From: Bradyrhizobium sp. Gha
GTDB lineage: Bacteria > Pseudomonadota > Alphaproteobacteria > Rhizobiales > Xanthobacteraceae
DNA: 64,000 nucleotides
Reading direction: 5' to 3'
Assembly (NCBI RefSeq): GCF_900113735.1
Contig: NZ_FOQM01000001.1
Coordinates: forward strand, 496,001-560,000
How positions within the stretch are numbered: position 1 is the first letter of the stretch; each line of letters opens with the position of its first letter. This document shows, piece after piece, positions 10,189-21,306 of the stretch. Under the pieces are notes generated by a model. It was not told the origin of the DNA, did not search any database, and worked only from the letters and a program-made list of their open reading frames with translations. Made by a program: the position numbers and the translations under genes.

Positions 10189-11361
10189 CTAGATCAGTTT
10201 CCGCTGCGCCAAATTCTTCATCAGGGCGCCGATGCCGAAGGTCCACGGCTCGCACTCGTCGCTGGTGCGCATGCGATTGACGAGCTTGCCGAGCTGGGGG
10301 GCAGCAATGGTGACGATGTCGTCGCGCTTATGGGTGAACCCCTGCCCCGGCGCATCGCGATCCTTCACGGGCGCGAACATGGTGCCCAGGAACAGCACGA
10401 ACCCATCGGGATATTGGTGCACCTTGCCGATGGTCTGCGCGACGAGGTCGGTCGGATCGCGGCTTATCTTGCTGATCGAGGAATGGCCGTCGAGAACGAA
10501 GCCGTCCGTGCCCTTCACGTTCAGGCTGATGTCGAGCTTGCGCGCATCATCCAGCGTGAAGCCGTCATCGAACAGGCGCAGCAGCGGACCGATCGAGCAC
10601 GACGCATTGTTATCCTTGGCCTTCGACAACAGCAGCGCCGAGCGGCCTTCGAAGTCTCGCAAATTCACGTCGTTGCCAAGCGCCGCGCCGACGATGTTGC
10701 CGCGGCTCGATACGAACAGCACCAGCTCCGGCTCCGGATTGTTCCAGGTCGACTTCGGATGCAGGCCGGCATCCATGCCGGTGCCGACCGAGGACAAGGT
10801 CGGCGCCTTCGTGAACACTTCGGCATCGGGGCCGATGCCGACTTCGAGATACTGGCTCCAGGCGTTCTGATCGATCAGCACCTGCTTCAGGTGCATCGCC
10901 TGGTCCGAGCCCGGCCTGAGTTTTGAAAGGTCATCACCGATCAACCGCGTAACCTCTTTGCGGATCGCTTCGGCCGAGGCCGGATTGCCCTTTGCCCGCT
11001 CCTCGATCACGCGCTCGAGCATTGAGATCGCGAAGGTGACGCCGGCAGCTTTCAACGTCTGGAGATCGACCGGCGCGAGCAGCCAGGGCTTCCTGGGATC
11101 ACGGCCATCCGGCGCAGTGTTGGCGACGATCGCCTCGAGATCGCCGATGCGCTCGCCCTTGGTCGTGGCGAGCGCCTTGGCCGGATTGTCCTCTTCACAG
11201 AGCGCGCTGATGGTCGGAAACGTCGCAGTGACGTCGAAGACGCCATCGCCGCGCACGGCGACAACGGCCGGACCGTTCGCCTGCGGCAGCCAGACCCGAC
11301 CGACCAGCGTTCCCTTCGTTCCATCCTCGGGGAGAAGATCTGCAACCGTCAAAATGGTCAT
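10189..11361 (-). CDS. FAH-family protein, probable 2-keto-3-deoxy-sugar-acid dehydratase (AraD1/XylX-like)
   Basis: A 390-residue protein with a C-terminal fumarylacetoacetate-hydrolase fold; typical motifs are VGIGPDAEVFTKAPTLSSVG, NNPEPELVLFVSSRG, GAALGNDVNLRDFEGRSALL and FLGTMFAPVKDRD. The long N-terminal domain (TLVGRVWLPQANGPAVVAVR) is found in the FAH subgroup that includes L-2-keto-3-deoxyarabonate and D-xylonate pathway dehydratases of about 390 residues. Its position just upstream of an aldose 1-dehydrogenase/lactonase operon supports that role over aromatic-ring catabolism. Start ATG 11361 follows GAGGACG; a longer reading from 11430 lacks such a site. The specific reaction is inferred from context. 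Confidence 0.75.
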   Translation of the reverse strand: MTILTVADLLPEDGTKGTLVGRVWLPQANGPAVVAVRGDGVFDVTATFPTISALCEEDNPAKALATTKGERIGDLEAIVANTAPDGRDPRKPWLLAPVDLQTLKAAGVTFAISMLERVIEERAKGNPASAEAIRKEVTRLIGDDLSKLRPGSDQAMHLKQVLIDQNAWSQYLEVGIGPDAEVFTKAPTLSSVGTGMDAGLHPKSTWNNPEPELVLFVSSRGNIVGAALGNDVNLRDFEGRSALLLSKAKDNNASCSIGPLLRLFDDGFTLDDARKLDISLNVKGTDGFVLDGHSSISKISRDPTDLVAQTIGKVHQYPDGFVLFLGTMFAPVKDRDAPGQGFTHKRDDIVTIAAPQLGKLVNRMRTSDECEPWTFGIGALMKNLAQRKLI

Positions 11362-11474
11362 GGCCGGCGTCCTCGCTGTTCTTGGATCGGCCGCGTTCGA
11401 ATGGCGGCCGATCACATTGGCGAAGACCAATAAACGTCTGGCATGGGAAGTCCAGAGCGGCAGGATGCCCGCTG

Positions 11475-12452
11475 CTATGCGCCTGCGCGTGCCTTCCGGG
11501 CGGCAATCTGCTGCAACGCCCAGCGCGCGTTCTTGCGGACATCGGGATCGGCATCGTCGGCGATGACGGCCAAAAATGCCTCACCGTCGGGATGGGCGAT
11601 CTCGCCGAGCGCGGCGGCCGCTTCCTTCCGCAGATTCGCCTGATCGTGGTTGATGCAATTGCCGATCGGGCGCACCGCGCGCTCGATTTTCATCTTGCCG
11701 AGGCTGCGGATCGCCTTCAACCGCACCTGCCAGTAGTCGTCGGAGAGTGAGCTCACGAGCGGGTCGGCGGCAAGCGAGCCGTTGACGTTGAGGCCGAGCG
11801 TCTCCGCGGCCATTTCGCGGACCATCCAATCGCTGTCCTTCAGCGCACGCGTGATAGTCTCGGCTGCGGGCTTCATCTGCGAAAATGCCAGCGCGCTAAC
11901 CGCGGCGCGGCGGACATGCGCGTCGGGATCGTTGATCAGCGCGGTCAGCGCGGGGATGGATTCCTCCAGCTTGAGGAAACCGATCACGCCGATCGCCTGC
12001 ACGCGCACCGCGGCATCGGAATCCTGCAGCGCCTCCAGCGCCGGCTTCAGCGTATCCTTGCAGCGCAGCTCCTTCAGCGCACGCAGCGCCCCCATGCGAA
12101 CGAAGGCATGGGCATGCTTGACCAGCGGCAGGATGACATTGGCGCAAGCGGGATCCTTGAACTCGGCCATGCTGTCGGCCGCCGCCGCCGCCACGATCCG
12201 TTCCGGATCGACCAGCAGCTTGACCAGCGCACTTGCGGCTTCCGGCCCGTCGAACTCACCGAGCGCCATCGCCACCTGCTGGCGCACGCCGGCGTCGGGA
12301 TCGGCGACCATCTTGGTGAGATGGACCACGGCTGCGGGATCGCCGGAATGGCCGAGCGCGATGATGGCGACGCGGCGTTCGGCGGGATCTGCCGCCTGAA
12401 GCCGCTCGTCGGCGTCTTCGAGATCGTCGTAGGATTCGAACGGGCTCGACAT
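11475..12452 (-). CDS. HEAT-repeat domain protein in the AprA-like redox cluster
   Basis: A 325-residue all-helical repeat protein. From about residue 20 to the end it consists of roughly 30-residue HEAT repeats of the PBS-lyase/EZ-heat type, with recurring D-P-D-A-x-V-R-x-x-A-A-x-A-L-G units (DPDAGVRQQVAMALGEFD, DPDAHVRRAAVSALAF, DPDVRKNARWALQQIA). Such proteins are scaffolds or assembly factors, and no catalytic motif is visible. It starts 2 bp after the ferredoxin stop and belongs to the same operon as the AprA-like flavoprotein, so I infer a role in assembling or docking that complex. The start is MSSPFES at 12452. Confidence 0.88.
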   Translation of the reverse strand: MSSPFESYDDLEDADERLQAADPAERRVAIIALGHSGDPAAVVHLTKMVADPDAGVRQQVAMALGEFDGPEAASALVKLLVDPERIVAAAAADSMAEFKDPACANVILPLVKHAHAFVRMGALRALKELRCKDTLKPALEALQDSDAAVRVQAIGVIGFLKLEESIPALTALINDPDAHVRRAAVSALAFSQMKPAAETITRALKDSDWMVREMAAETLGLNVNGSLAADPLVSSLSDDYWQVRLKAIRSLGKMKIERAVRPIGNCINHDQANLRKEAAAALGEIAHPDGEAFLAVIADDADPDVRKNARWALQQIAARKARAGA

Positions 12453-12454
12453 GA

Positions 12455-12688
12455 TCACCTCAACAGATAGGGAATATTGACGGTGACGGCACCGGTCGGG
12501 CAATCGGCCTCGCAGGGCATGCAGTACCAGCACTCGTCATAGGCCATGTAGGCCTTGCCGGTCATATCGCTGATGCGCAGCACGTCGAGCGGACAGACGT
12601 CGACGCACACGGTGCAGCCCTTGTCGGCAATGCATTTGGCGTCGTCGACGACGACCGGAACCGATGTCTGATGGGACGCGAGAGGCAT
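12455..12688 (-). CDS. Small ferredoxin with two [4Fe-4S] clusters (AprB-like partner)
   Basis: A 77-residue ferredoxin with two cysteine sets: CIADKGCTVCVDVCP (Cys-x5-Cys-x2-Cys-x3-Cys-Pro) and CWYCMPCEADCP (Cys-x2-Cys-x2-Cys-x3-Cys-Pro). This spacing resembles the N-terminal electron-transfer part of adenylylsulfate reductase beta subunits more than bacterial 2x[4Fe-4S] ferredoxins. It sits directly downstream of the AprA-like flavoprotein gene (31 bp) and 2 bp before the HEAT gene, so it is probably the dedicated electron carrier of that flavoenzyme. Confidence 0.9.
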   Translation of the reverse strand: MPLASHQTSVPVVVDDAKCIADKGCTVCVDVCPLDVLRISDMTGKAYMAYDECWYCMPCEADCPTGAVTVNIPYLLR

Positions 12689-12719
12689 ATCATGTCTCCT
12701 GTTGCTATCGTGCGGTGGA

Positions 12720-14462
12720 TCAGGCGGTGGCGCGAATGCGCTGCTTGTCGTAGAGGTCCTTCTCGTCGTCGGCGATCGGCACGACGTAGGGCTCTACGGC
12801 ACGCTTCTGGCTGGTCATCTTGCCGTTCTGCTTGCTGAGCAGCGTGTGGCAGAACCAGTTCGCGTTGTCCTTCTCCGGAAAATCGGTGCGCCAGTGGTAG
12901 AGGCCCCAGCGGCTCTCTTCACGGTACAACGAGGCATGCACCGCCATGTCGGCGCAATCCATGATCGACTGTACTTCGAGGGCACGGAGCAACTCGTGCG
13001 CGTTGCGCGCGATCATATGCTCCTGCATGTCCTGCCGGGCTTCGGCGAGGCGACGCATGCCGAGCTCGTACTTGCGCGTGACCTTCGGCGGCTGGAGATA
13101 GTCGTTGACCAAACGGCGGGTCTTGTACTCGACCTGGTTCGGTGGGATGCCGTCCTCGCGCTTGGTCGGTGCCATCACGCGATCTCGTTCCCTGGCCACG
13201 TCCTGCGCATCGAACTCCGCGAAGTCATGGTTCTCGGCAAATTCCATGGCGTCGATGCCGGCGACCGAGCCGTTGGTAAAGGCGCCCAGCATGTAATTGT
13301 GGGGCACGCTCGCCATGTCGCCAGCGGCGTAAAGGCCCGGCACGGTGGTGCGGGCATTGTCGTCGACGAACACGCCGGAGGCGCTGTGGCCGGAGCAGAA
13401 GCCGATCTCGGAGATGTGCATCTCGATCGAGTCGTTGCGGTAGTCGACGCCACGCCCCTGCTGGAACAGCCCGCGCGTGGGACGCTCGACCTTGTGCAGC
13501 GTGGATTCGATCTCCGAGATGGTGTCGGGGTGGAGGTGCTTGAGCTGGAGGAACACGGGGCCCTTGCCTGACAGCAGTTCGTTGTAGAATTCCAGCATCA
13601 TCTGGCCCGACCAATAGTCGCATTCGATGAAGCGCGAGCCTTCGTTGTTGGCCGTGAAGGCGCCGAAGGGACCGGCGACATAAGCGCACGCCGGGCCATT
13701 GTAGTCCTTGATCAGCGGATTGATCTGGTAGCATTCGAGGTTCGCGAGCGCGGCCCCGGCGTGATAGGCCATGGAATAGCCGTCGCCGGAATTGGCGGCG
13801 TTCTCGTAGGTGCCGAACATGTAGCCGGAGGTCGGCAGGCCCAGGCGGCCGGCGGCGCCCATGCAGAGGATCACGGCCTTGGCCTTGATCACCAGGATCT
13901 CGGCGGTGCGGGTGTTGACGGAGATTGCGCCGGCGATGCGGCCGTCGGACGATTTCAGCAGCCGCGTCGCCATGTAGCGATTGGAGATCAGAATGCGGGC
14001 GCGGCGGAGTTGGCGGTACAGCGCCTTCTTCACGGTCTCGCCGTTCGGCATCGGCAGAACATAGGTGCCGATGTGGTGCACCTTCTTGACGGCGTAGTCG
14101 CCATTCTCGTTCTTCAGGAAACGAATACCGAAACTATCGAGCTCTTCGATGATGCTGTAGCAGTTTTGCGCGTATTTGTAGACCGCCTTCTGGTCGACGA
14201 TGCCGTCGTTGGCAATGGTGATTTCCTTGGTGTACTGCTCCGGCGTCGCGTAGCCGGGGATGACGGCGTTGTTCAGTCCGTCCATGCCCATCGAAATCGC
14301 GCCGGAGCGCTTGACGTTGGCCTTTTCGAGCAGGACGACATTGGCCTTCGGGTTCTTCAGCTTCGCCTTCAGCGCCGCCATCGGGCCGGCCGTGCCGCCG
14401 CCGATCACGAGCACGTCGCAAGAAACCTCCGAAAGCCCATCGACGATCTGATCTAGTGCCAT
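12720..14462 (-). CDS. AprA-like FAD flavoprotein (fumarate reductase/succinate dehydrogenase flavoprotein superfamily)
   Basis: A 580-residue cytoplasmic flavoprotein. The N-terminal FAD motif is CDVLVIGGGTAGPMAALKAK, followed by RSGAISMGMDGLNN. The mid-region has the substrate-side block (FGTYENAANSGDGYSMAYHAG, INPLIKDYNGPACAYV) and a second FAD motif GLYAAGDMASVPHNYMLGA. The C-terminal helical domain ends WGLYHWRTDFPEKDNANWFC. The layout matches AprA/FrdA-type proteins, and the adjacent two-cluster ferredoxin recalls AprBA. No sulfate-activating or Dsr genes are nearby, so a dissimilatory APS reductase role is unlikely. Start ATG 14462 has AGGAGC upstream; a longer reading from 14501 does not. 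Substrate unknown. Confidence 0.85.
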   Translation of the reverse strand: MALDQIVDGLSEVSCDVLVIGGGTAGPMAALKAKLKNPKANVVLLEKANVKRSGAISMGMDGLNNAVIPGYATPEQYTKEITIANDGIVDQKAVYKYAQNCYSIIEELDSFGIRFLKNENGDYAVKKVHHIGTYVLPMPNGETVKKALYRQLRRARILISNRYMATRLLKSSDGRIAGAISVNTRTAEILVIKAKAVILCMGAAGRLGLPTSGYMFGTYENAANSGDGYSMAYHAGAALANLECYQINPLIKDYNGPACAYVAGPFGAFTANNEGSRFIECDYWSGQMMLEFYNELLSGKGPVFLQLKHLHPDTISEIESTLHKVERPTRGLFQQGRGVDYRNDSIEMHISEIGFCSGHSASGVFVDDNARTTVPGLYAAGDMASVPHNYMLGAFTNGSVAGIDAMEFAENHDFAEFDAQDVARERDRVMAPTKREDGIPPNQVEYKTRRLVNDYLQPPKVTRKYELGMRRLAEARQDMQEHMIARNAHELLRALEVQSIMDCADMAVHASLYREESRWGLYHWRTDFPEKDNANWFCHTLLSKQNGKMTSQKRAVEPYVVPIADDEKDLYDKQRIRATA

Positions 14463-14523
14463 CACTTGCTCCTGGTTCGCCGATAGCCGGCGCCTTTGCA
14501 TCAGATTTGTTCAGGTGGCGTCC

Positions 14524-14544
14524 CGCCGATAGCAATTAGTTGTC
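14524..14544 (-). promoter_or_regulatory. Shared element upstream of the AprA-like gene (ACAACTAATTGC)
   Basis: Read toward the gene, the core is ACAACTAATTGC followed by TATCGGCG, about 62-82 bp before the start codon. A near copy in the same orientation relative to its gene lies before the DUF971 gene, and a third before the binding-protein gene. The element is AT-rich in a GC-rich background. It may bind the cluster's Crp/Fnr regulator or be part of the promoter. Confidence 0.55.
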
Positions 14545-14563
14545 GCCGGGCCGCGATTTGCGC

Positions 14564-15337
14564 TCAGCGCTCGACAAAAGCCTTCTCGATGACGAAATGG
14601 CCGGGCTGGCTGTGGTTGCCCTCGACAAAGCCGCGCGCTGAAAACATCGCGGGCAGTTCCTCCAGCATCGCCGGGCTGCCGCACAGCATGATGCGGTCGG
14701 TCTCGATATCCAGGCCCGATAGGCCGATGTCGTCGAACAGCTGGCTGGAAGCGATCAAATCGGTGATGCGACCGCGATTCCTGAACGGTTCGCGGGTGAC
14801 AGTCGGATAGTAGACGAGTTTGTCGCGGATCAGCGGCCCGAAGAACTCGTGGTTGCGCAGACCATCGACCAGGTGCTCGCCATAAGCGAGCTCGGAGACT
14901 TGGCGGCAGCCGTGAGCGAGCACGATTGTCTCGTAATTCTCGTAGACATCGGGGTCCTTGATCAGGCTCGCGAACGGCGCGAGTCCCGTGCCGGTCGAGA
15001 GCAGGAACAGGCGTTTGCCTGGAAGGAGGTTACCGGTGATCAGCGTGCCTGTCGCCTTGCGTCCGACCAGAATGATGTCGCCTTCCCTGATCTTTTGCAG
15101 GCGGGAGGTCAACGGACCGTCCTGCACCTTGATCGAGAAGAATTCGAGCGCTTCCTCGTGATTGGCGCTCGCCATGCTGTAGGCGCGCATCATGGGCTTG
15201 CCCTCCACCTCCAGCCCGATCATCGCGAACTGGCCGTTCTGAAAGCGGAAGCCGGGATCGCGCGTCGCGGTGAAGCTGAACAGGGACTCGGTCCAGTGCC
15301 TGACCGACAGAACCGTTTCCTTCTGAAATGCGCTCAT
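14564..15337 (-). CDS. Ferredoxin--NADP+ reductase, bacterial FPR type
   Basis: A 257-residue FAD protein that exchanges electrons between NADP(H) and ferredoxin. The FAD-binding motif is MMRAYSMAS (RxYS class), preceded by the hydrophobic strand FQNGQFAMIGL. The NADP-binding half has LLSTGTGLAPFASLI and MLCGSPAMLEEL, and the C-terminus FVIEKAFVER is the usual FPR ending. The length matches the family exactly. Start ATG 15337 follows AGGAGAG. It lies upstream of the AprA-like flavoprotein and ferredoxin on the same strand, giving a complete NADPH-ferredoxin-flavoprotein chain. Confidence 0.92.
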   Translation of the reverse strand: MSAFQKETVLSVRHWTESLFSFTATRDPGFRFQNGQFAMIGLEVEGKPMMRAYSMASANHEEALEFFSIKVQDGPLTSRLQKIREGDIILVGRKATGTLITGNLLPGKRLFLLSTGTGLAPFASLIKDPDVYENYETIVLAHGCRQVSELAYGEHLVDGLRNHEFFGPLIRDKLVYYPTVTREPFRNRGRITDLIASSQLFDDIGLSGLDIETDRIMLCGSPAMLEELPAMFSARGFVEGNHSQPGHFVIEKAFVER

Positions 15338-15481
15338 GGTCTCTCCTCTCAATGACGCACAAAGTTTCGGAGAGAGCGGAACCCGGCAATTCGGAAGTGA
15401 AATTCCCGGTGGATTAGTTTCACATTTCGTGGGCGATGATCGAAGCGGAGGCACACCGCCGTGTCGATGCACACTTGCGAC

Positions 15482-15502
15482 GGCAATTAGTTGCTATCCG
15501 CG
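15482..15502 (+). promoter_or_regulatory. Shared element upstream of the DUF971 gene (GCAATTAGTTGC)
   Basis: The near-palindrome GCAATTAGTTGC followed by TATCCGCG lies 40-60 bp before the DUF971 start and in the divergent region facing the ferredoxin reductase gene. It matches the element before the AprA-like gene in core and in downstream bases when both are read toward their genes. Confidence 0.55.
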
Positions 15503-15541
15503 CGCGTCGACGACCGCCTATGGAGGAGCCGGAGGTTCGTC

Positions 15542-15844
15542 ATGACCATGACCCTGGTGGCACCGACGGTGACCGGCTACGAAGCAAGCACCGATTTGGC
15601 GACACTTCTCGTGCGGACCACCGAGGGCAAAACGCTCAGCGTTCTTGCCGAGCGGCTCCGTTTATCCTGCAGGTGCGCCCACTGCACCCGCGCGCGCTTC
15701 GACGAGCGCTTTCCCGAACGGTTTCCGGGAATTGCCATCACCGAGATCGGCGATCTCGGCTATGGGCTCAACATCTCGTTCTCGGACGGGCATAACAGGG
15801 GGATTTACCCAAAGCCGTATCTGCTGAGTTTGGCGGGGCCGTAG
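15542..15844 (+). CDS. DUF971 (gamma-butyrobetaine hydroxylase-like N-terminal) domain protein
   Basis: A 100-residue protein consisting almost entirely of the DUF971/GBBH-like_N domain: LRLSCRCAHCTRARFDERF, then VGxYAL-type ITEIGDLGYGLNISFSDGH and IYPKPYLLSL. The Cys-Cys pair in CRCAHC corresponds to the CPCAxC metal-binding motif of the family, though the usual Pro is replaced. Stand-alone members are linked to Fe-S or metal handling, for example near Mrp/ApbC. GGAGG lies 7 bp before ATG 15542. It is divergent from the ferredoxin reductase and probably belongs to the same functional module. Confidence 0.85.
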   Translation: MTMTLVAPTVTGYEASTDLATLLVRTTEGKTLSVLAERLRLSCRCAHCTRARFDERFPERFPGIAITEIGDLGYGLNISFSDGHNRGIYPKPYLLSLAGP

Positions 15845-15870
15845 GGCTCGATCTCCCCTCGCACTCCGCT

Positions 15871-15969
15871 GTCATTCCCCGCGAAAGCGGGGAATCCAGT
15901 ACGCCGGGCCCATCCGCATCCCATTGCTGTCTCTGGAATACTGGATCGCCCGCTTTCGCGGGCGATGAC
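15871..15969. repeat. GTCATTCC...GATGAC intergenic repeat
   Basis: A mosaic inverted element with outer GTCATTCCCCGCGAAAGCGG and CCGCTTTCGCGGGCGATGAC arms and an inner CCAGTA/TACTGG pair. The same architecture recurs at 39764-39862, 60248-60325 and 62695-62773. It lies between the DUF971 and Crp/Fnr genes. Confidence 0.75.
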
Positions 15970-16044
15970 ACCGGTGTTAGTGGCTGCCATCTGGCACGGA
16001 CATTGCTCCTCTTTGGAACGACTTGAACGTTCCGGAGACAGACG

Positions 16045-16818
16045 ATGTTGCAGGCGGCGAGTGCGGTTCGCGGGACTGTTCCCCCGGCAGTCCGGCCTGC
16101 GGGCAGCTCCTCGCTGCTGCTGACCGAGAACCAGCAATGGATCGGTGGGCCACCACCTCTGATGGACAAGCTCTCACCGCGCGAGCGGGAGCTGGTGCTG
16201 AAGCAGGGCCGGCGAAAGGTGCTTAACCGCGGCCAGACTCTGTTCAGCCAGGGCGGCAAGCATGACGGTATCTGGCTCATCGAAAGTGGCCGCATCCGCG
16301 TGTTCTACAGCTCCCCGCTCGGGCGCGAGATCACGCTGGCCTACTGGCACGCCGGGAATTTCGTCGGCGGCCCCGAGGTGTTCGAGGGCACCGTCCATCA
16401 ATGGTCCGGCGTCGCGTCCAGCAATTGCAGCGTGGTGCACCTGCCCGGAAAGGAACTGCGGTCCCTTGCTGCAGAGATCCCAAACCTTGCGATCGGTCTG
16501 ATCGAAGGCCTCACCTTCAAGGGCAAGTGCTATTCGGCACTGGCGCAGATGCTGGGAACGCGCTCGATTACGCAGCGCCTTGCACATTTGTTGCTGCACC
16601 TCGTCGAGCTCTATGGCGTGGAGGATGCCGATGGCCGGGTGATCGCGGCTGCATTCACCCATGCCGACATCGCCCACATGGTCGGCGCCACCAGGCAATG
16701 GGTCACGATCAGCCTGAAGCGGATGCAGGAGAAGGGAATCGTCGTGACCAAGCGGTCCCAGATCGTGGTCTGTCGGACAGACGTACTGGACGAGATGCGC
16801 GGCCACGCATCCGACTGA
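16045..16818 (+). CDS. Crp/Fnr family transcriptional regulator
   Basis: A 257-residue regulator with an N-terminal cyclic-nucleotide-type beta-roll (about residues 60-150: ESGRIRVFYSSPLGREITLAYWHAGNFVGG) and a C-terminal Crp helix-turn-helix (FTHADIAHMVGATRQWVTISLKRMQEKGIV). No N-terminal cluster of cysteines is present, so it is not an oxygen-sensing Fnr. The recognition helix ATRQWVTISLKRM resembles that of CysR/NtcA-like members. GGAG lies about 8 bp before ATG 16045. Flanked by cluster genes on both sides, it is the obvious candidate regulator of the redox/ABC module. Confidence 0.9.
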   Translation: MLQAASAVRGTVPPAVRPAGSSSLLLTENQQWIGGPPPLMDKLSPRERELVLKQGRRKVLNRGQTLFSQGGKHDGIWLIESGRIRVFYSSPLGREITLAYWHAGNFVGGPEVFEGTVHQWSGVASSNCSVVHLPGKELRSLAAEIPNLAIGLIEGLTFKGKCYSALAQMLGTRSITQRLAHLLLHLVELYGVEDADGRVIAAAFTHADIAHMVGATRQWVTISLKRMQEKGIVVTKRSQIVVCRTDVLDEMRGHASD

Positions 16819-16901
16819 ACGAGTTTGCCGGCAAGATCACTGCACAGGCAAGCGGCTTTATAGTGCAGGACTGCTCAAGGAGTATGCAATCAGCTTTTCC
16901 C

Positions 16902-16922
16902 GGCAACTAATCGACTGCGGTC
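16902..16922 (+). promoter_or_regulatory. Shared element upstream of the ABC binding-protein gene (GCAACTAATCGA)
   Basis: The core GGCAACTAATCGACTGC lies 78-98 bp before the chosen start of the binding-protein gene. It matches the two other copies in the module over CAACTAAT-Y-G. It is the most degenerate of the three. Confidence 0.45.
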
Positions 16923-16999
16923 AACATTCCGGATTTGCCCTGTCCACGCCCTCCCCCAATCATGGCAACCACAGCACATCCAACCTGATGAGGATGAGA

Positions 17000-18421
17000 A
17001 TGGTCCGCCATCTTCCCACGCTCTCGATCGCGATGTCGGTGACGTCGCTGGCGCTTCTCATTGCGCAGCCGGCCACGGCGGAAACCGTCACGCTCGGTAT
17101 CGGAACACAGGACACAACGACCAACACGGTGACCGCAGGCGTCGTCATCCGGCGGCTTCATCTTTTGGAAAAATACCTGCCTAAGGACGGCAAATACGCG
17201 AACATCAAGTTCGAGCTGGAGTGGCAGAATTTCACGTCAGGTCCGCCCGTCACCAACGCGATGATGGCGAACAAGCTGCAGATCGGCATGATGGGCGACT
17301 ACCCGCTGATCGTGAACGGCTTCACTTTCGACAGCAATCCCGAGAGCAAGAGCCGGCTGATCGGCATCGCGGCCTACAGCCTCTCCGGCTCCGGCAATGG
17401 CATCGTCGTCCACAAGGACTCGCCGTACTACGATCTGGCCGATCTCAAGGGCAAGCTGGTCAGCGTGCCCTTCGGCTCCGCCGCGCACGGCATGGTGCTG
17501 AAGGCGATGCAGGACCGCGGCTATTCCTCGGATTTCTTCCAGCTCGTGAGCCAGAGCCCTGAAGTCGGCTCAACCAATCTCCAGGAAAAAAAGATCGACG
17601 CGCATGCCGACTTCGTTCCCTTCGCCGAATTGCTGCCGTTCCGCGGCTTTGCGCGCAAGATTTTTGACGGCGTCGAGACCAATCTGCCGACCTTCCACGG
17701 CATCGTCGTTCGTACCGACTTCGCCGAAAAGTACCCCGAAGTCGTCGTGGCCTACATGAAGGCGCTGATCGCCGCCAATCAATGGCTACGCGACGATCCC
17801 AAGGTTGCATCTGAAAAAATCCAGGAATGGACCGGCATCAACAAGGAGGTCGTCTACATCTTCTTGGGCCCGAGTGGCAACATGACCACCGATCCCACGG
17901 TCAAGCCGGCGCTGGTCGATGCGGCCGCCACCGACGTCAAGGTGCTGCAAAACCTCGGACGCATGAAGGAGTTCGATCCGAAGAAATGGGTCGACGACAG
18001 CTACATCCGCAAGGCCTATGCCGAGATGAAGCTCGACTATGACGCGCAGCTTGGCAGCACCAAGAACTACGAAATCTCGGGCGAAGACGCTTTCTGCAAG
18101 AAGCCGATCACCGATCCGCGCAAGGCCGGTGAAGTCTGGGTGGATGAGGCCGGCATCATGCCGTTCTCATCCGCCGCCTGCACCTTGGGGGCCTATGCCG
18201 ACTTCAAGGCAAAGGGCAAGAAGATCAACGTCGCCTACGTCTTCGACACCACCCGCGGCATCAAGCTGTTCGCCGACCAGGCCTTCTTCGCGGTCGGCAA
18301 TGGCGAGGTCGCGCCGTTCCTGCTGAAGACGGACGCGGAGGCCTACGCCGCCAAGATCAGCGGCAAGGTGCTCGGTTTCGACGATGCGGTGAAGGCGGCA
18401 GTCGGCGGAGGCAAGACGTGA
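17000..18421 (+). CDS. SsuA/NrtA-like ABC substrate-binding protein with C-terminal NosL-like domain
   Basis: A 473-residue exported protein. The signal peptide ends near PATAE (residue 25). Residues about 30-340 form a NMT1/SsuA-type binding fold (TSGPPVTNAMMANKLQIGMMGDYPL, LVSVPFGSAAHGMVLKAM). The remaining 110 residues are extra for this family and read like NosL: an isolated Cys (DAFCKKPITDP), MPFSSAACTLGAYADF, VAYVFDTTRGIKLFADQAFFAVG and LLKTDAEAYAAKISGKVLGFDDAV. NosL proteins bind Cu(I). The permease GTG overlaps its stop. ATG 17000 has AGG 6 bp upstream; in-frame ATGs at 16988 and 16994 lack a ribosome-binding site. Ligand unknown, probably an oxyanion or sulfonate. Confidence 0.85.
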   Translation: MVRHLPTLSIAMSVTSLALLIAQPATAETVTLGIGTQDTTTNTVTAGVVIRRLHLLEKYLPKDGKYANIKFELEWQNFTSGPPVTNAMMANKLQIGMMGDYPLIVNGFTFDSNPESKSRLIGIAAYSLSGSGNGIVVHKDSPYYDLADLKGKLVSVPFGSAAHGMVLKAMQDRGYSSDFFQLVSQSPEVGSTNLQEKKIDAHADFVPFAELLPFRGFARKIFDGVETNLPTFHGIVVRTDFAEKYPEVVVAYMKALIAANQWLRDDPKVASEKIQEWTGINKEVVYIFLGPSGNMTTDPTVKPALVDAAATDVKVLQNLGRMKEFDPKKWVDDSYIRKAYAEMKLDYDAQLGSTKNYEISGEDAFCKKPITDPRKAGEVWVDEAGIMPFSSAACTLGAYADFKAKGKKINVAYVFDTTRGIKLFADQAFFAVGNGEVAPFLLKTDAEAYAAKISGKVLGFDDAVKAAVGGGKT

Positions 18422-19329
18422 GCAGTCCCGCCCTCGTCAGACATCCTGAGGACAGCAACATGCCGGCAGCGATTGCCGAGGCGGAGCGCGTGCCCGCCGT
18501 CACGCCCCCGGTGGCTCCGCCCTCCTTCGGCACGCTCGCGCTGCGCTGGTACCGGCTGAACCAGGGCCGGCTCCGCGCGACCGCGATCGGCATCATTTCG
18601 CTGCTTGCGTTCCTGCTGGTCTGGCACCTGCTCACGACCTATCGCGTCGTGTTCTTCGTGCGCTTCACCAATGTGCCCTCGCCGGTCGCAGTCTATGGGA
18701 GTTTCACCAAGGCGATCCACGATCCCAAATTCCTGATGCACATCGTGCTGAGCTGCCGGCGCATCCTCGTCGGCTTCTCCCTCGCGGCCATCGTCGGCGT
18801 GCCGCTCGGCCTGATCATGGGTCGATTCAAGCTGGTCCACGAGGTCATCTTCCCGGTCGCGGAAGTGCTGCGGCCGATTCCGGCAATTGCCTGGGTGCCG
18901 ATGGCGATCATGCTGTGGCCGACCAACGAGCAGAGCATCGTCTTCATCACCTTCCTCGGCTCGTTCTTCCCGATCCTGGTCAACACGCTGCACGGCATGA
19001 CGCTGGTCGATCCCGTGCTGGTGCGCGCGGCTCAATGTCTCGGCGCACGCGAACGCGCGATTTTCCGCGAGGTGTATTTTCCGGCGTCGTTGCCGCACAT
19101 CTTCACTGGTCTCACCGTGGGTATGGGCGTCGCCTGGGTGTCGCTGATCGCCGCCGAGATGATCTCCGGCCAGTACGGCATCGGCTACTTCACCTGGGAG
19201 GCCTATTCGCTGGTCCAGTATGCCGACATCGCACTCGGCATGATCGCGATCGGCGTGCTTGGTCTCGGATCGAGCCTCTTGATCAGGGGCGCGGGACATC
19301 TGGTGATGCCGTGGAGGTCGACGAGATGA
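18418..19329 (+). CDS. ABC transporter permease, SsuC/TauC/NrtB-like
   Basis: A 303-residue inner-membrane permease of the nitrate/sulfonate/taurine class, with six or so membrane segments and the cytoplasmic EAA loop LVRAAQCLGARERAIFREVYFPASLPHIFTGL. Start is GTG at 18418, overlapping the binding-protein stop as GTGA; an internal ATG lies 14 codons later. The stop overlaps the ATPase start as ATGA. It forms the membrane channel of the importer whose binding protein carries the NosL-like tail. Confidence 0.9.
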   Translation: MSSPALVRHPEDSNMPAAIAEAERVPAVTPPVAPPSFGTLALRWYRLNQGRLRATAIGIISLLAFLLVWHLLTTYRVVFFVRFTNVPSPVAVYGSFTKAIHDPKFLMHIVLSCRRILVGFSLAAIVGVPLGLIMGRFKLVHEVIFPVAEVLRPIPAIAWVPMAIMLWPTNEQSIVFITFLGSFFPILVNTLHGMTLVDPVLVRAAQCLGARERAIFREVYFPASLPHIFTGLTVGMGVAWVSLIAAEMISGQYGIGYFTWEAYSLVQYADIALGMIAIGVLGLGSSLLIRGAGHLVMPWRSTR

Positions 19330-20198
19330 GCGAGATGCTTGCGAGCGAACCGAAAGGCCACATCGAGGTCAAGAATTTTTCTCTCAGTTACGACAGCATC
19401 GAGGGGCCCGTCCAGGCCGTCACGGACACGCAGATCCATGTGAAGCCCGGCGAGTTCGTCTCGATCGTCGGTCCCTCCGGGTGCGGAAAGTCGACCCTGC
19501 TCAACGCGGTCGCCGGCTTCCTCAAGCCCACCACGGGTATTGTCACGGTCGATGGCGAGCGCGTGAACGGCCCGAGCGCCGAGCGCGGCATGGTGTTCCA
19601 GCAATATTCGCTGTTTCCCTGGAAGACGGTGCGGGAGAATGTCGAATTCGGCCTGAAGATGCGCGGCATGCCTCGCTCGCAGCGCGAGCGTGCCGCGCGC
19701 ACCCTGCTCGGGCTTGCCGGGCTCGAAGCCTTCGAAAAGCACTATCCGGAAAAGCTCTCCGGCGGCATGAAGCAGCGCGTCGGCATCGTCCGCGCGCTCG
19801 CGACCGGCCCGAAAGTGCTGCTGCTGGACGAGCCCTTCGGGGCGCTCGACGCGCAGACGCGCGTCATCATGCAGCAGATCCTCACCAACATGTGGCAGCG
19901 ACTGAAGATCTCGGTGCTGTTCGTCACCCACGACATCGATGAAGCGATCTTCCTGTCCGACCGCGTCTACTGCATGACCGCCCGCCCCGGCTCGATCAAG
20001 GCGGAGATCCCGATTCCGCTGGAGCGGCCGCGGCAGCAGTCGATGATGATGTCGTCTGAATTTCTGGCGCTGCGTCGCGGGCTGATGTCATTGATTCGCG
20101 AGGAGAGCCTGAAAGCGATGGGTGGCGAGATCAACGACATGGGCATGCAGGGGCTGAACATAGAGCTGCACGGCCATTCGCTGGCGGATGTGATTTAG
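19326..20198 (+). CDS. ABC transporter ATP-binding protein, SsuB/TauB/NrtD-like
   Basis: A 290-residue ATPase with Walker A GPSGCGKST, Q-loop VFQQYSLFPWKTV, signature LSGGMKQRVGIVRAL, Walker B VLLLDEPFGALD and H-loop FVTHDIDEAIFLSDRV. The ATG at 19326 overlaps the permease stop. The GxxQQxSLFPW variant is usual for nitrate/sulfonate/taurine importers. A longer upstream reading is spurious because it overlaps the permease gene in another frame. Confidence 0.92.
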   Translation: MSEMLASEPKGHIEVKNFSLSYDSIEGPVQAVTDTQIHVKPGEFVSIVGPSGCGKSTLLNAVAGFLKPTTGIVTVDGERVNGPSAERGMVFQQYSLFPWKTVRENVEFGLKMRGMPRSQRERAARTLLGLAGLEAFEKHYPEKLSGGMKQRVGIVRALATGPKVLLLDEPFGALDAQTRVIMQQILTNMWQRLKISVLFVTHDIDEAIFLSDRVYCMTARPGSIKAEIPIPLERPRQQSMMMSSEFLALRRGLMSLIREESLKAMGGEINDMGMQGLNIELHGHSLADVI

Positions 20199-20247
20199 CT
20201 TACCCGCCCTGCTTGCAGGGAGAGCGAGTGCACGCGCTTCGCGTCCC

Positions 20248-21306
20248 TTACTTGAACCAATGCACCAGCGCGATGCTGACGCCGAGCAGCAGCATCAGCG
20301 ACAGCGTCACCGCCGCGGTCACTCTGCCTCCAACATTGGCGAGCACGCGAACGTCAACCCCAAGGCCCAGCGCCGCCATCGATACCACCGTGAGGAAGCT
20401 CGTGATCTTCGTCACGGGACCAACCACCGTGCCCGGGACAATCTCGAGCGACCGCAACGTCGCCAGGGCGAGGAAGCCGAGGATGAACCAGGGCACCAGG
20501 CGGAAGAAGCCGACATTGGTCTTCTTGGCGCCGGTCTGCCAGCGCGAGGCGATCAGCGAGAGACCGACGACCACGGGTCCCAGCATCAGCACACGCATCA
20601 GCTTGACCAGCGTGCCGATCTGCGTGGATATCAGCCCCGCCGGCACCGTCGCCGCGAGCACCTGCGGCACGGCATAGACAGTCAGCCCTGCGAGGATGCC
20701 GTATTGCGTGGCGGTGAGTTGCAACAGCGGAATCAACAACGGCAGGCCCAGCACCATCATCACGCCGAGAATGGCGGTGAAGGAGATCGAGGATGCGATC
20801 TCGTCGCTGTTGGCGCCGATAATCGGCGCGACTGCCGCAATCGCGGAATTGCCACAGATGGAGTTGCCGCAAGCGATCAAGATCGACAGTCGCGTGGAGA
20901 GGCCCAGCAGGCGGCTGAGGCCGAAGGAGACGGAGAGCGCGATCACGACGACAGCTGCGATCGATGCCAGAAGCGCAATGCCCGAGGCCGCAATCGCGGC
21001 AAAGCTGATGGAGGCGCCCAGCAGCATGACCGCGACTTCGAGCAGCTGCTTGGCGCTGAAGGCGATGCCGGCCTGCCAGCGCGGCGCCGGCTTCCAGAAA
21101 CTGCGCAAGGCCATCCCCAGCAGGATCGCCATGACCAGCGCCTCGACGTAAGGATGTTCGAACACGCCGAGTTCTGCCCGTTCCAGAAGAGCCGAGACGC
21201 CGGCAACCGCGATGCACAGGAGAATGCCGGGAATCAGCGCGACGACACGGCCAAAAGCTGTGGTCGGCTTGGCGCCGGCTGGGCTGGATGCTTGATTCTG
21301 CGACAC
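20248..21306 (-). CDS. YeiH/UPF0324 family membrane protein, putative sulfate/sulfite exporter
   Basis: A 352-residue integral membrane protein with about ten hydrophobic segments. The diagnostic YeiH motif ACGNSICGNSAIAAVAPIIGA is present, followed by ILGVMMVLGLPLLIP. Members of this family (COG2855) include TauZ-type candidates for exporting sulfite or sulfate formed from sulfonate degradation. It converges on the SsuABC-like operon with a 49-bp gap. That neighbourhood is the main reason to suspect that the redox module releases an inorganic sulfur anion; the substrate is not proven. Confidence 0.85.
   Translation of the reverse strand: MSQNQASSPAGAKPTTAFGRVVALIPGILLCIAVAGVSALLERAELGVFEHPYVEALVMAILLGMALRSFWKPAPRWQAGIAFSAKQLLEVAVMLLGASISFAAIAASGIALLASIAAVVVIALSVSFGLSRLLGLSTRLSILIACGNSICGNSAIAAVAPIIGANSDEIASSISFTAILGVMMVLGLPLLIPLLQLTATQYGILAGLTVYAVPQVLAATVPAGLISTQIGTLVKLMRVLMLGPVVVGLSLIASRWQTGAKKTNVGFFRLVPWFILGFLALATLRSLEIVPGTVVGPVTKITSFLTVVSMAALGLGVDVRVLANVGGRVTAAVTLSLMLLLGVSIALVHWFK

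Follow-up and report, generated by a model that had tools for sequence, protein, structure and literature searches.

The stretch of DNA analysed here (hereafter the window: 64,000 nt, G000:C54:496001-560000) belongs to the genome of Bradyrhizobium sp. Gha, available as 8.25 Mb in 95 contigs. Between nt 11475 and 21306 it carries a set of genes, here called the module, grouped around a predicted flavin adenine dinucleotide (FAD) protein resembling AprA, the alpha subunit of adenosine 5'-phosphosulfate (APS) reductase, and possibly forming a mobile unit for the use of organosulfur compounds. All eight genes named by an initial annotation, made from the sequence alone, are present as open frames with family matches (Table 1), their start codons being chosen by alignment with homologues. 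On the minus strand, a gap of 101 bases follows the ferredoxin-NADP reductase (FNR) gene before the flavoprotein gene begins, 31 bases separate the flavoprotein end (12720) from the ferredoxin start (12688), and the ferredoxin and HEAT genes almost abut (12455/12452). Divergently, on the plus strand, the DUF971 and Crp-type genes precede those for the binding protein, permease and ATPase of an ATP-binding cassette (ABC) transporter, whose three frames overlap at their ends, and the YeiH gene is convergent with the ATPase gene.

Table 1. Predicted genes of the module, with position in the window and best supporting matches.
Feature	Position (nt)	Strand	Supporting match
HEAT-repeat protein, probable third subunit or assembly partner	11475..12452	-	PF13646, 9.4e-60
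Two-[4Fe-4S] ferredoxin, 77 aa, AprB-like, probable beta subunit	12455..12688	-	PF12838, 6.1e-9
AprA-like FAD protein, probable catalytic subunit	12720..14462	-	NF006131, 1060.9 bits (cut-off 587)
Ferredoxin-NADP reductase (FNR), optional electron supplier	14564..15337	-	PF00175/PF00970; best model PRK10926, 135.4 bits (below cut-off 390)
DUF971 (GBBH-like_N) protein, probable Fe-S assembly helper	15542..15844	+	PF06155, 1.2e-12
Crp-family regulator	16045..16818	+	PF00027, PF13545
SsuA/TauA-fold binding protein with extra C-terminal domain	16988..18421	+	TIGR01728, 2.5e-35, 122.1 bits (below cut-off 163.5)
ABC permease	18418..19329	+	PF00528
ABC ATPase	19326..20198	+	PF00005
YeiH-type exporter, accessory	20248..21306	-	PF03601, 232.4 bits; TIGR00698, 149.5 bits (below cut-off 232.6)

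A scan of GTDB genomes retrieved at least 594 stretches, at least 556 of them encoding a relative of the flavoprotein; the best 80 were kept as loci, most of them from Bradyrhizobium and close relatives, and the closest named relatives among the GTDB matches listed were Bradyrhizobium proteins (98% identical). Within the flanks available for each of the 80 loci, the flavoprotein gene was accompanied by genes for HEAT (79), ferredoxin (77), binding protein (75), ATPase (75), permease (74), DUF971 (74), a Crp-type regulator (70), FNR (62), YeiH (39), SsuD (3) and a TauE-like protein (1). All five core partners were found near the flavoprotein in 64 of the 67 loci having a stretch of at least 19 kb, and in 16 of the 19 such loci that we classed as lying outside Bradyrhizobium, the three misses being two Hyphomicrobium loci with no ferredoxin beside the flavoprotein and one Rhodomicrobium locus. 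Outside the Bradyrhizobium group, gene order and strand vary, with the importer upstream or downstream and on the same or the opposite strand, thus making the linkage more than the common descent of one stretch.

Taking one locus per genus-like group gave 37 representatives; short contigs (L070, L071, L072, L082, L088 and others) were left out, as were second members of a genus, including L065 (which has YeiH), L063 (TauE-like), L059, L061 and L062 (second YeiH type), L099 and L135. The same tblastn queries and threshold were applied to 40 control windows of 20 kb on contigs of ten module-bearing genomes, ten windows coming from the genome under study and four from another genome of its order, at positions chosen by us and not drawn at random. 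The representatives matched ferredoxin and HEAT (36 each), binding protein and ATPase (34 each), permease (32), DUF971 (26), GntR (21), Crp-type (19), FNR (11), FdxA (10), YeiH (7), TauE (3) and SsuD (2), together with SCO, PCuAC and cytochrome c4-like proteins (8 each). In the control windows every partner gave 0 of 40 matches except the ATPase, which is generic (14 of 40). The binding protein was missed in L094, where the stretch ends at annotated ABC genes, and in L013 and L119. The conserved co-occurrence that had been set beforehand as a check on the initial annotation is therefore borne out by both sets of counts, and it is near certain that the module is conserved and real.

By the NF006131 model, the flavoprotein family was present in 4 of 289 genomes of the class, in 21 of 398 genomes and 10 of 212 genera of the phylum (the genome under study being counted throughout) and in none of 14 control genomes; within its own genus the phylum survey found the family in six further genomes, and three listed genomes were without it. 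Searched at the protein level, 72,556 plasmid records yielded 51 flavoprotein matches at E 1e-60, from Alpha-, Beta- and Gammaproteobacteria, Acidithiobacillus, the cyanobacteria Nostoc, Leptolyngbya and Pseudanabaena, and the actinobacteria Tsukamurella and Nonomuraea. Relaxing the limit to 1e-22 raised the number to 57, the additions being three family members in partial form (64-80% identical) and three more distant relatives (about 26%), with nothing in the gap between the family (at least 54% identity) and these relatives. The ferredoxin alone, used as query, matched 48 plasmid records, all within the 51 of the flavoprotein.

Arrangements differ among these copies. Acinetobacter and Paraburkholderia have the order GntR/UTRA-flavoprotein-ferredoxin-binding protein-permease-ATPase-HEAT-DUF971; in Leptolyngbya and Pseudanabaena an Mrp/NBP35 ATPase accompanies the core, as do exporters of both the TauE and the YeiH type; Tsukamurella encodes a flavoprotein-HEAT fusion (2682 bases), which is the architecture of NF010374; and in Nostoc five other genes separate the flavoprotein from the ferredoxin and HEAT. 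In three Hyphomicrobium loci (L075, L076 and L079) the flavoprotein and HEAT genes are close together, no ferredoxin was found next to the two, and upstream lies an ssu-type set that includes SsuD.

Among the 25 best models (47 matched), the flavoprotein passes the cut-off of NF006131 only (Table 1). It reached 799.7 bits with the HEAT-fused sister model NF010374 (cut-off 1196), 281.6 with the adenylyl-sulfate reductase model (cut-off 557), 158.9 with aprA TIGR02061 (below its cut-off of 641.75), about 167 with SdhA/FrdA models and 130 with NadB. Aspartate oxidase was rejected as its identity (nadB, 129.9 bits, far below 452.75), and so was fumarate reductase or succinate dehydrogenase (fum_red_Fp, 125.4 versus 932.7; sdhA_forward, 124.6 versus 727.35). 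The best match among solved structures was 8a8o_A, the alpha subunit of the 3'-phosphoadenosine 5'-phosphosulfate (PAPS) reductase of Methanothermococcus thermolithotrophicus (MtPAPSR; 1.8e-62, query residues 3-539), with APS reductase also among the best. In a tree of 40 rows, 27 family members formed their own group (93/96, not starred), eight AprA sequences and 8a8o formed one starred group (100/100) with no family member inside, and four paralogues from the genome under study stood apart as two pairs. Given the low support (85/42) of the fork uniting the family with AprA, and a number of long branches, we claim only that the flavoprotein is not nested, i.e., that it lies outside the families of known reaction included (AprA, the 8a8o PAPS reductase and AsfA-like proteins), in line with the initial annotation.

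Four signature motifs were scored in the 108 family proteins that exceed 500 aa in the loci retrieved; many of these proteins are closely related. Equivalents of Asn74 and His398 of APS reductase are kept in 108 of 108 members; in all of them as well, the Arg265 equivalent is Leu (PL[IM]KD), and the stretch holding the Glu141/Gln145 APS-binding residues is replaced by VH[HR]xGxYVLPMPxG. Of these positions, we take Arg265 to be catalytic in APS reductase, His398 to be its active-site His and Glu141 to be an APS-binding residue. MtPAPSR and the aligned AprA rows keep the Arg. Gln145 is named in excerpts of PMC10322725. Invariant residues of the window protein, counted from the Met codon at 14462, include Asn64, His129, Leu250 and His359. 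The pattern suggests a flavoprotein that retained sulfo-chemistry and lost the nucleotide site. By eye, it has no signal peptide.

The ferredoxin finds polyferredoxins at the top of its structure matches (MvhB, 9sw6_G, 1.4e-9), with AprB (3gyx_B, 1.5e-7; 1jnr_B, 6.1e-5) and the beta subunit of PAPS reductase (8a8o_C, 1.5e-4) further down, so that score, motif and partner together underlie the designation AprB-like. The motif CWxCxxCxxxCP is kept in 104 of 105 ferredoxins, the exception being L058. In this locus (Bradyrhizobium hereditatis) the ferredoxin frame, near 11.7 kb, is disrupted, and it is the sole one of the 105 without the second cluster motif. In MtPAPSR, Trp42 is proposed to be used between cluster and FAD (PMC10322725, in excerpt), and the motif of the module ferredoxin holds the equivalent of this relay Trp. 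We infer that the ferredoxin is an AprB-type subunit and not a free carrier. In three cyanobacterial loci an annotated Mrp/NBP35 ATPase lies near HEAT in place of DUF971. The initial annotation had described a complete electron chain from NADPH to the flavoprotein; as a fixed feature this is not supported, since FNR is not a constant part of the module (62 of 80 loci, mostly Bradyrhizobium kin, and 11 of 37 representatives).

The structural model of the binding protein (predicted local distance difference test, pLDDT, 84.5) has the taurine binder TauA (6ssy) and the sulfonate binder SsuA (3ksx) as its best fold matches, the latter with Z 26.5 over 285 aligned residues, 3.0 A and 21% identity. 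The fold suggests a sulfonate ligand without proving it. Besides the TIGR01728 score of the binding protein (Table 1), the scores of the importer parts with the TauA, SsuC, TauC and taurine ATPase models also fall below the curated cut-offs; the SAO organometal models score best for the ABC parts, though they too stay below cut-off (SaoP, 149.7 versus 295; SaoA, 263 versus 360). The binding protein has an extra C-terminal domain of about 100 residues, weakly NosL-like and below the Pfam cut-off in the window protein; it is barely covered in the fold lists, which therefore have no bearing on its fold. NosL binds metal through conserved Cys residues. A copper-binding NosL domain was considered as the key to the substrate and rejected, as Pfam NosL matched 4 of 17 binding proteins (E 0.001) and the cysteines of the domain are not conserved in the alignment.

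As for export, YeiH or TauE occurred in 8 of 37 representatives versus 0 of 40 control windows (Fisher p 0.0018, a guide only, given that windows and representatives were chosen by us). The YeiH genes counted above in 39 of the 80 loci are mostly from Bradyrhizobium, with other arrangements in cyanobacteria, Chelativorans, Mesorhizobium and Labrenzia. A second type of YeiH, sharing about 30% identity with that of the window, lies inside the module between DUF971 and FNR in L059, L061, L062 and L065; these four stand outside the 8 of 37 count.

Several copies have sulfur genes as neighbours. SsuD and sulfonate ABC genes adjoin the module in three Hyphomicrobium loci, SfnB, SsuD, a TauD/TfdA dioxygenase and a sulfonate ABC set in Sinorhizobium chiapasense, an NtaA/DmoA monooxygenase with an SsuA-type ABC set in Cupriavidus, and O-acetylhomoserine sulfhydrylase with YeeE/YedE in Nostoc. 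Besides the module, the genome under study holds an incomplete second importer half on another contig (G000:C75; L199:7077-10253), 73-82% identical to that of Afipia L092 and made of parts of a Crp-type regulator and of a binding protein, plus permease and ATPase. The N-terminal parts of both regulator and binding protein are missing and the two remnants adjoin, which would fit a deletion of the divergent promoter region. The remnant is flanked on one side by an SsuA-type binding protein and an NtaA/DmoA-type monooxygenase and on the other by O-acetylhomoserine sulfhydrylase, a MetQ-like protein and two AsfAB-like pairs. Elsewhere the genome has SsuD (631 bits) and a CysH-type match (161.1 bits, below the cut-off of 235.3), thus the module is neither its sole sulfonate route nor a needed replacement of CysH.

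AsfA and AsfB of C. metallidurans are Rmet_4334/5 (PMC2864759, in excerpt). On the CH34 megaplasmid, a flavoprotein-ferredoxin pair lies by SsuA-type ABC genes (L198:3389-9862), another flavoprotein of the superfamily being near (L195); this pair, in an unannotated record, is probably Rmet_4334/5. The two consecutive AsfAB-like flavoprotein-ferredoxin pairs beside the importer remnant (L199:13906-18246) have flavoproteins with 66% and 45% identity to the probable AsfA of CH34, and a 119-aa protein with no NCBIfam match at E 1e-15 lies between them. Identity of the module flavoprotein with AsfA was rejected, as it is 24.8% identical to the CH34 protein and separate from the AsfA-like pairs of its own genome. 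The absence of Ssu enzymes from the window, noted by the initial annotation, agrees with tblastn searches of the 64 kb, which were limited to SsuD, AsfA and AsfB: SsuD gave no match, and AsfA and AsfB matched only the flavoprotein and ferredoxin of the module itself.

Regulators differ among the copies. The Crp-family protein of the window is without an Fnr-type N-terminal Cys cluster, as read from its sequence. A LysR-type regulator beside the module in Pseudanabaena (L134:11661-13661, 666 aa) is homologous to the binding protein over residues 327-664 (4.8e-59), and this fusion is likely to sense a ligand, perhaps that of the binding protein; the count of 25 of 37 obtained with the query LYSR_cy is invalid for LysR genes, because the C-terminal half of the query matches the binding protein. 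Scanned for palindromes, six intergenic stretches showed no operator common to the promoters, only a few short single palindromes and a pair of REP-like hairpins (CCCCGCGAAAGCGGGG and GCCCGCTTTCGCGGGC) at nt 15874-15966, between the DUF971 and Crp-type genes. At nt 10189-11430 a protein with an FAA-hydrolase domain adjoins the HEAT gene; it is kept by the module in many Bradyrhizobium loci, was not seen in the other genera compared, and is probably a mere neighbour.

An extended module, with SCO1, a PCuAC copper chaperone, a cytochrome c4-like protein and a protein of about 230 aa, was observed in eight loci (L073, L078, L080, L083, L084, L085, L087 and L091). The protein of about 230 aa had no Pfam match (L080 copies), and a TlpA-like thioredoxin is present in seven of the eight. 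In Chelativorans, a nitrile hydratase alpha gene (L080:6461-7120; PF02979, 5.3e-86) adjoins YeiH and FNR. Thiocyanate or nitrile use, considered on the basis of this gene, was rejected, as it matched 1 of 37 representatives.

We propose that an organosulfonate, or some sulfo-compound like it, would be brought in by the binding protein and the ABC transporter. It would then meet a cytoplasmic complex in which the flavoprotein is joined by the AprB-like ferredoxin (beta subunit) and the HEAT protein (third subunit), the clusters of the complex being loaded with the help of DUF971 or Mrp. Electrons would pass along the two iron-sulfur clusters and the relay Trp to the flavoprotein, and sulfite would be freed from the substrate through a flavin-sulfite adduct, as in the action of APS reductase on APS; the cell might then assimilate this sulfite, or YeiH or TauE might export it, unchanged or as sulfate. 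That the module serves the use of organosulfur compounds seems to us probable. Whether the flavoprotein itself releases the sulfite we put at somewhat short of an even chance. The combination of organosulfonate-like uptake with flavin-dependent sulfite release is the best explanation we have, tentatively held, and the narrower proposal that the complex is an oxygen-independent reductive desulfonase of an imported sulfo-compound (acting on C-S, or N-S or S-S, bonds), with chemistry derived from that of APS reductase, is possible and rather doubtful.

Several lines of evidence lead to this explanation. The best solved relatives of the flavoprotein, PAPS and APS reductase, both release sulfite; the linkage holds across phyla in varied gene orders, with controls near zero; and the binding protein is nearest in fold to sulfonate binders. 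YeiH/TauE enrichment, sulfonate neighbours and the importer remnant within an organosulfur island point the same way, as do the kept Asn and His together with the changed APS loop and Arg and the Trp motif of the ferredoxin. Finally, asfRABC, a set of parallel anatomy, is needed for the use of aromatic sulfonates according to excerpts of PMC4267179. The initial annotation, largely right on genes and conservation, had also suggested that an organosulfur compound enters and an inorganic anion leaves; the fold of the binder, the exporters, the sulfonate and sulfone neighbours and the importer remnant favour this, while the pathway is still proposed rather than observed. No support was obtained for a choice between the reductive and the oxidative cleavage that it had put forward.

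Other observations weigh against the explanation given above. The substrate is conjectural, and bicarbonate and nitrate binders lie within about 2 Z units, and pyrimidine and pyrroloquinoline quinone binders within about 5, in the fold list of the binding protein. The position of Arg265 is Leu throughout the family, and the fold prediction of the flavoprotein (pLDDT 46.3) provides no active-site model in support. No importer was found near the flavoprotein in L013 and L119, and no permease or ATPase in the stretches examined of Nostoc and Rhodomicrobium; fewer than half of the loci have sulfur neighbours; and SCO, PCuAC and cytochrome c (8 of 37), amidases and nitrile hydratase alpha are not predicted.

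Among the alternatives, the flavoprotein and ferredoxin could supply electrons to an SsuD-type flavin monooxygenase encoded elsewhere and cleave no C-S bond themselves. Excerpts of PMC4267179 describe asfRABC, like the module in its parts, as electron transfer for C-S oxygenation, the genome under study has both SsuD and two AsfAB-like pairs elsewhere, and SsuD adjoins the three Hyphomicrobium copies. Nevertheless, SsuD was matched in 3 of 80 loci, and the flavoprotein belongs to another tree group than the probable AsfA of C. metallidurans (24.8% identity) and keeps the Asn and His of APS reductase, absent in three AsfA-like proteins; such a role is in our opinion unlikely. The complex could also work in the oxidative direction, on sulfite or an organic substrate, reducing ferredoxin and NADP, given that dissimilatory APS reductase is reversible (PMC10322725, in excerpt), that dehydrogenases are among the fold kin and that eight alphaproteobacterial copies have cytochrome c4-like and SCO genes with them. 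We regard this as improbable: the cytochrome and SCO proteins look periplasmic, with signal-like N termini by eye, whereas the flavoprotein shows no signal peptide, and no sulfate adenylyltransferase is annotated in the stretches viewed, although no search was aimed at it.

Metal or chalkophore handling, i.e., import of a copper- or metal-bound thiol compound and its reduction by the enzyme, would account for the NosL-like C-terminal domain, the SCO1 and PCuAC neighbours and the ABC scores with SaoA and SaoP, below cut-off as they are. The SaoA score is unspecific, since the ATPase by the probable CH34 asf pair is also best matched by SaoA, and with NosL in 4 of 17 binding proteins, its Cys unconserved, SCO and PCuAC in 8 of 37 representatives and the sulfite exporters left unexplained, this reading is very improbable. 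A use of nitrogen compounds (nitrile, amide or cyanate) in which sulfur is incidental has hardly any chance in our view: the amidases by copies in Methylocystis, Nostoc and Tardiphaga (with similar frames in Afipia, by eye), the allophanate hydrolase near the M. radiotolerans copy and the Chelativorans nitrile hydratase alpha are neighbours that vary by genome, while the recurring exporters belong to the sulfite/sulfate type. Least probable of all is an assimilatory APS or PAPS reductase replacing CysH, for which the best structure match, MtPAPSR, an assimilatory enzyme of AprAB type (excerpts of PMC10322725), would speak; the APS-site residues and Arg265 are replaced, the genome has the CysH-type match elsewhere, and an importer would be superfluous.

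According to excerpts of PMC4267179, sulfonates make up 30-70% of soil organic sulfur, and the bacterial release route described there is oxygenolytic. If the proposal of uptake and flavin-dependent sulfite release is correct, the module, frequent in Bradyrhizobium and present in cyanobacteria too, would fill a gap among the routes that mobilise sulfur. In the narrower case of an oxygen-independent reductive desulfonase, sulfonate sulfur would be reached outside the monooxygenase, dioxygenase and glycyl-radical routes, by a module that at least three bacterial phyla have on their chromosomes and plasmids. It would also give a function to a curated family now under a generic and probably misleading name. 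With sulfo-chemistry residues kept and the nucleotide site replaced, the family offers a direct test of the re-use of APS-reductase chemistry.

The module was called undescribed by the initial annotation, and this holds for the open-access literature searched with a view to the module, its surroundings, the PAPS reductase and the SAO system, none of the papers listed describing it by title and abstract (subscription papers, including the original asf paper, lie outside that scope). It has to be qualified in two respects, as its anatomy parallels that of asfRABC and as models of NCBI, NF006131 (PRK08275) and NF010374 (PRK13800), already cover the flavoprotein and the HEAT fusion. The name of these models, 'fumarate reductase/succinate dehydrogenase flavoprotein subunit', is generic, and no function or module is attached to them in the output.

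Compared with AprAB, the module likewise pairs an FAD alpha protein with a two-[4Fe-4S] partner bearing the CWxC Trp motif, and keeps the Asn74 and His398 equivalents. On the contrary, its flavoprotein stands in a separate tree group, with Leu for Arg265 and the VH[HR]xGxYVLPMPxG loop in the E141/Q145 region, its 77-aa ferredoxin is without the long C-terminal tail of AprB (chains of 150-166 aa), and it adds HEAT, DUF971 and importer partners. MtPAPSR, the best solved match of the flavoprotein, keeps the Arg and groups with AprA and not with the module family; excerpts of PMC10322725 mention no importer. The mechanism proposed there is an attack of FAD N5 on sulfur, giving an FAD-sulfite intermediate. 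SsuABC and TauABC share the fold of the binding protein and differ in that the three importer parts of the module fall below their curated cut-offs and in the extra C-terminal domain.

The nearest set of parts is asfRABC, which also has a reductase/flavoprotein, a small ferredoxin, an SsuA-like binding protein, ABC genes and a link with sulfonates (proposed in the case of the module), with a LysR regulator among its parts. Insertions in asfA abolished the use of aromatic sulfonates and retained that of aliphatic ones, and asfRABC is understood to deliver the electrons with which the C-S bond is oxygenated (both from excerpts of PMC4267179); the Gordonia paper PMC7661421, in whose excerpts no mention of fumarate reductase or ferredoxin was found, is neutral in this respect. 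Beyond the identity, tree grouping and Asn/His differences weighed above, no HEAT or DUF971 match was found in the 190 kb of CH34 examined. By these comparisons the module is not asf, though built of a like set of parts, and by analogy AsfAB may be seen both as a precedent, for sulfonate use, and as the source of the main rival reading, that of electron supply to an oxygenase.

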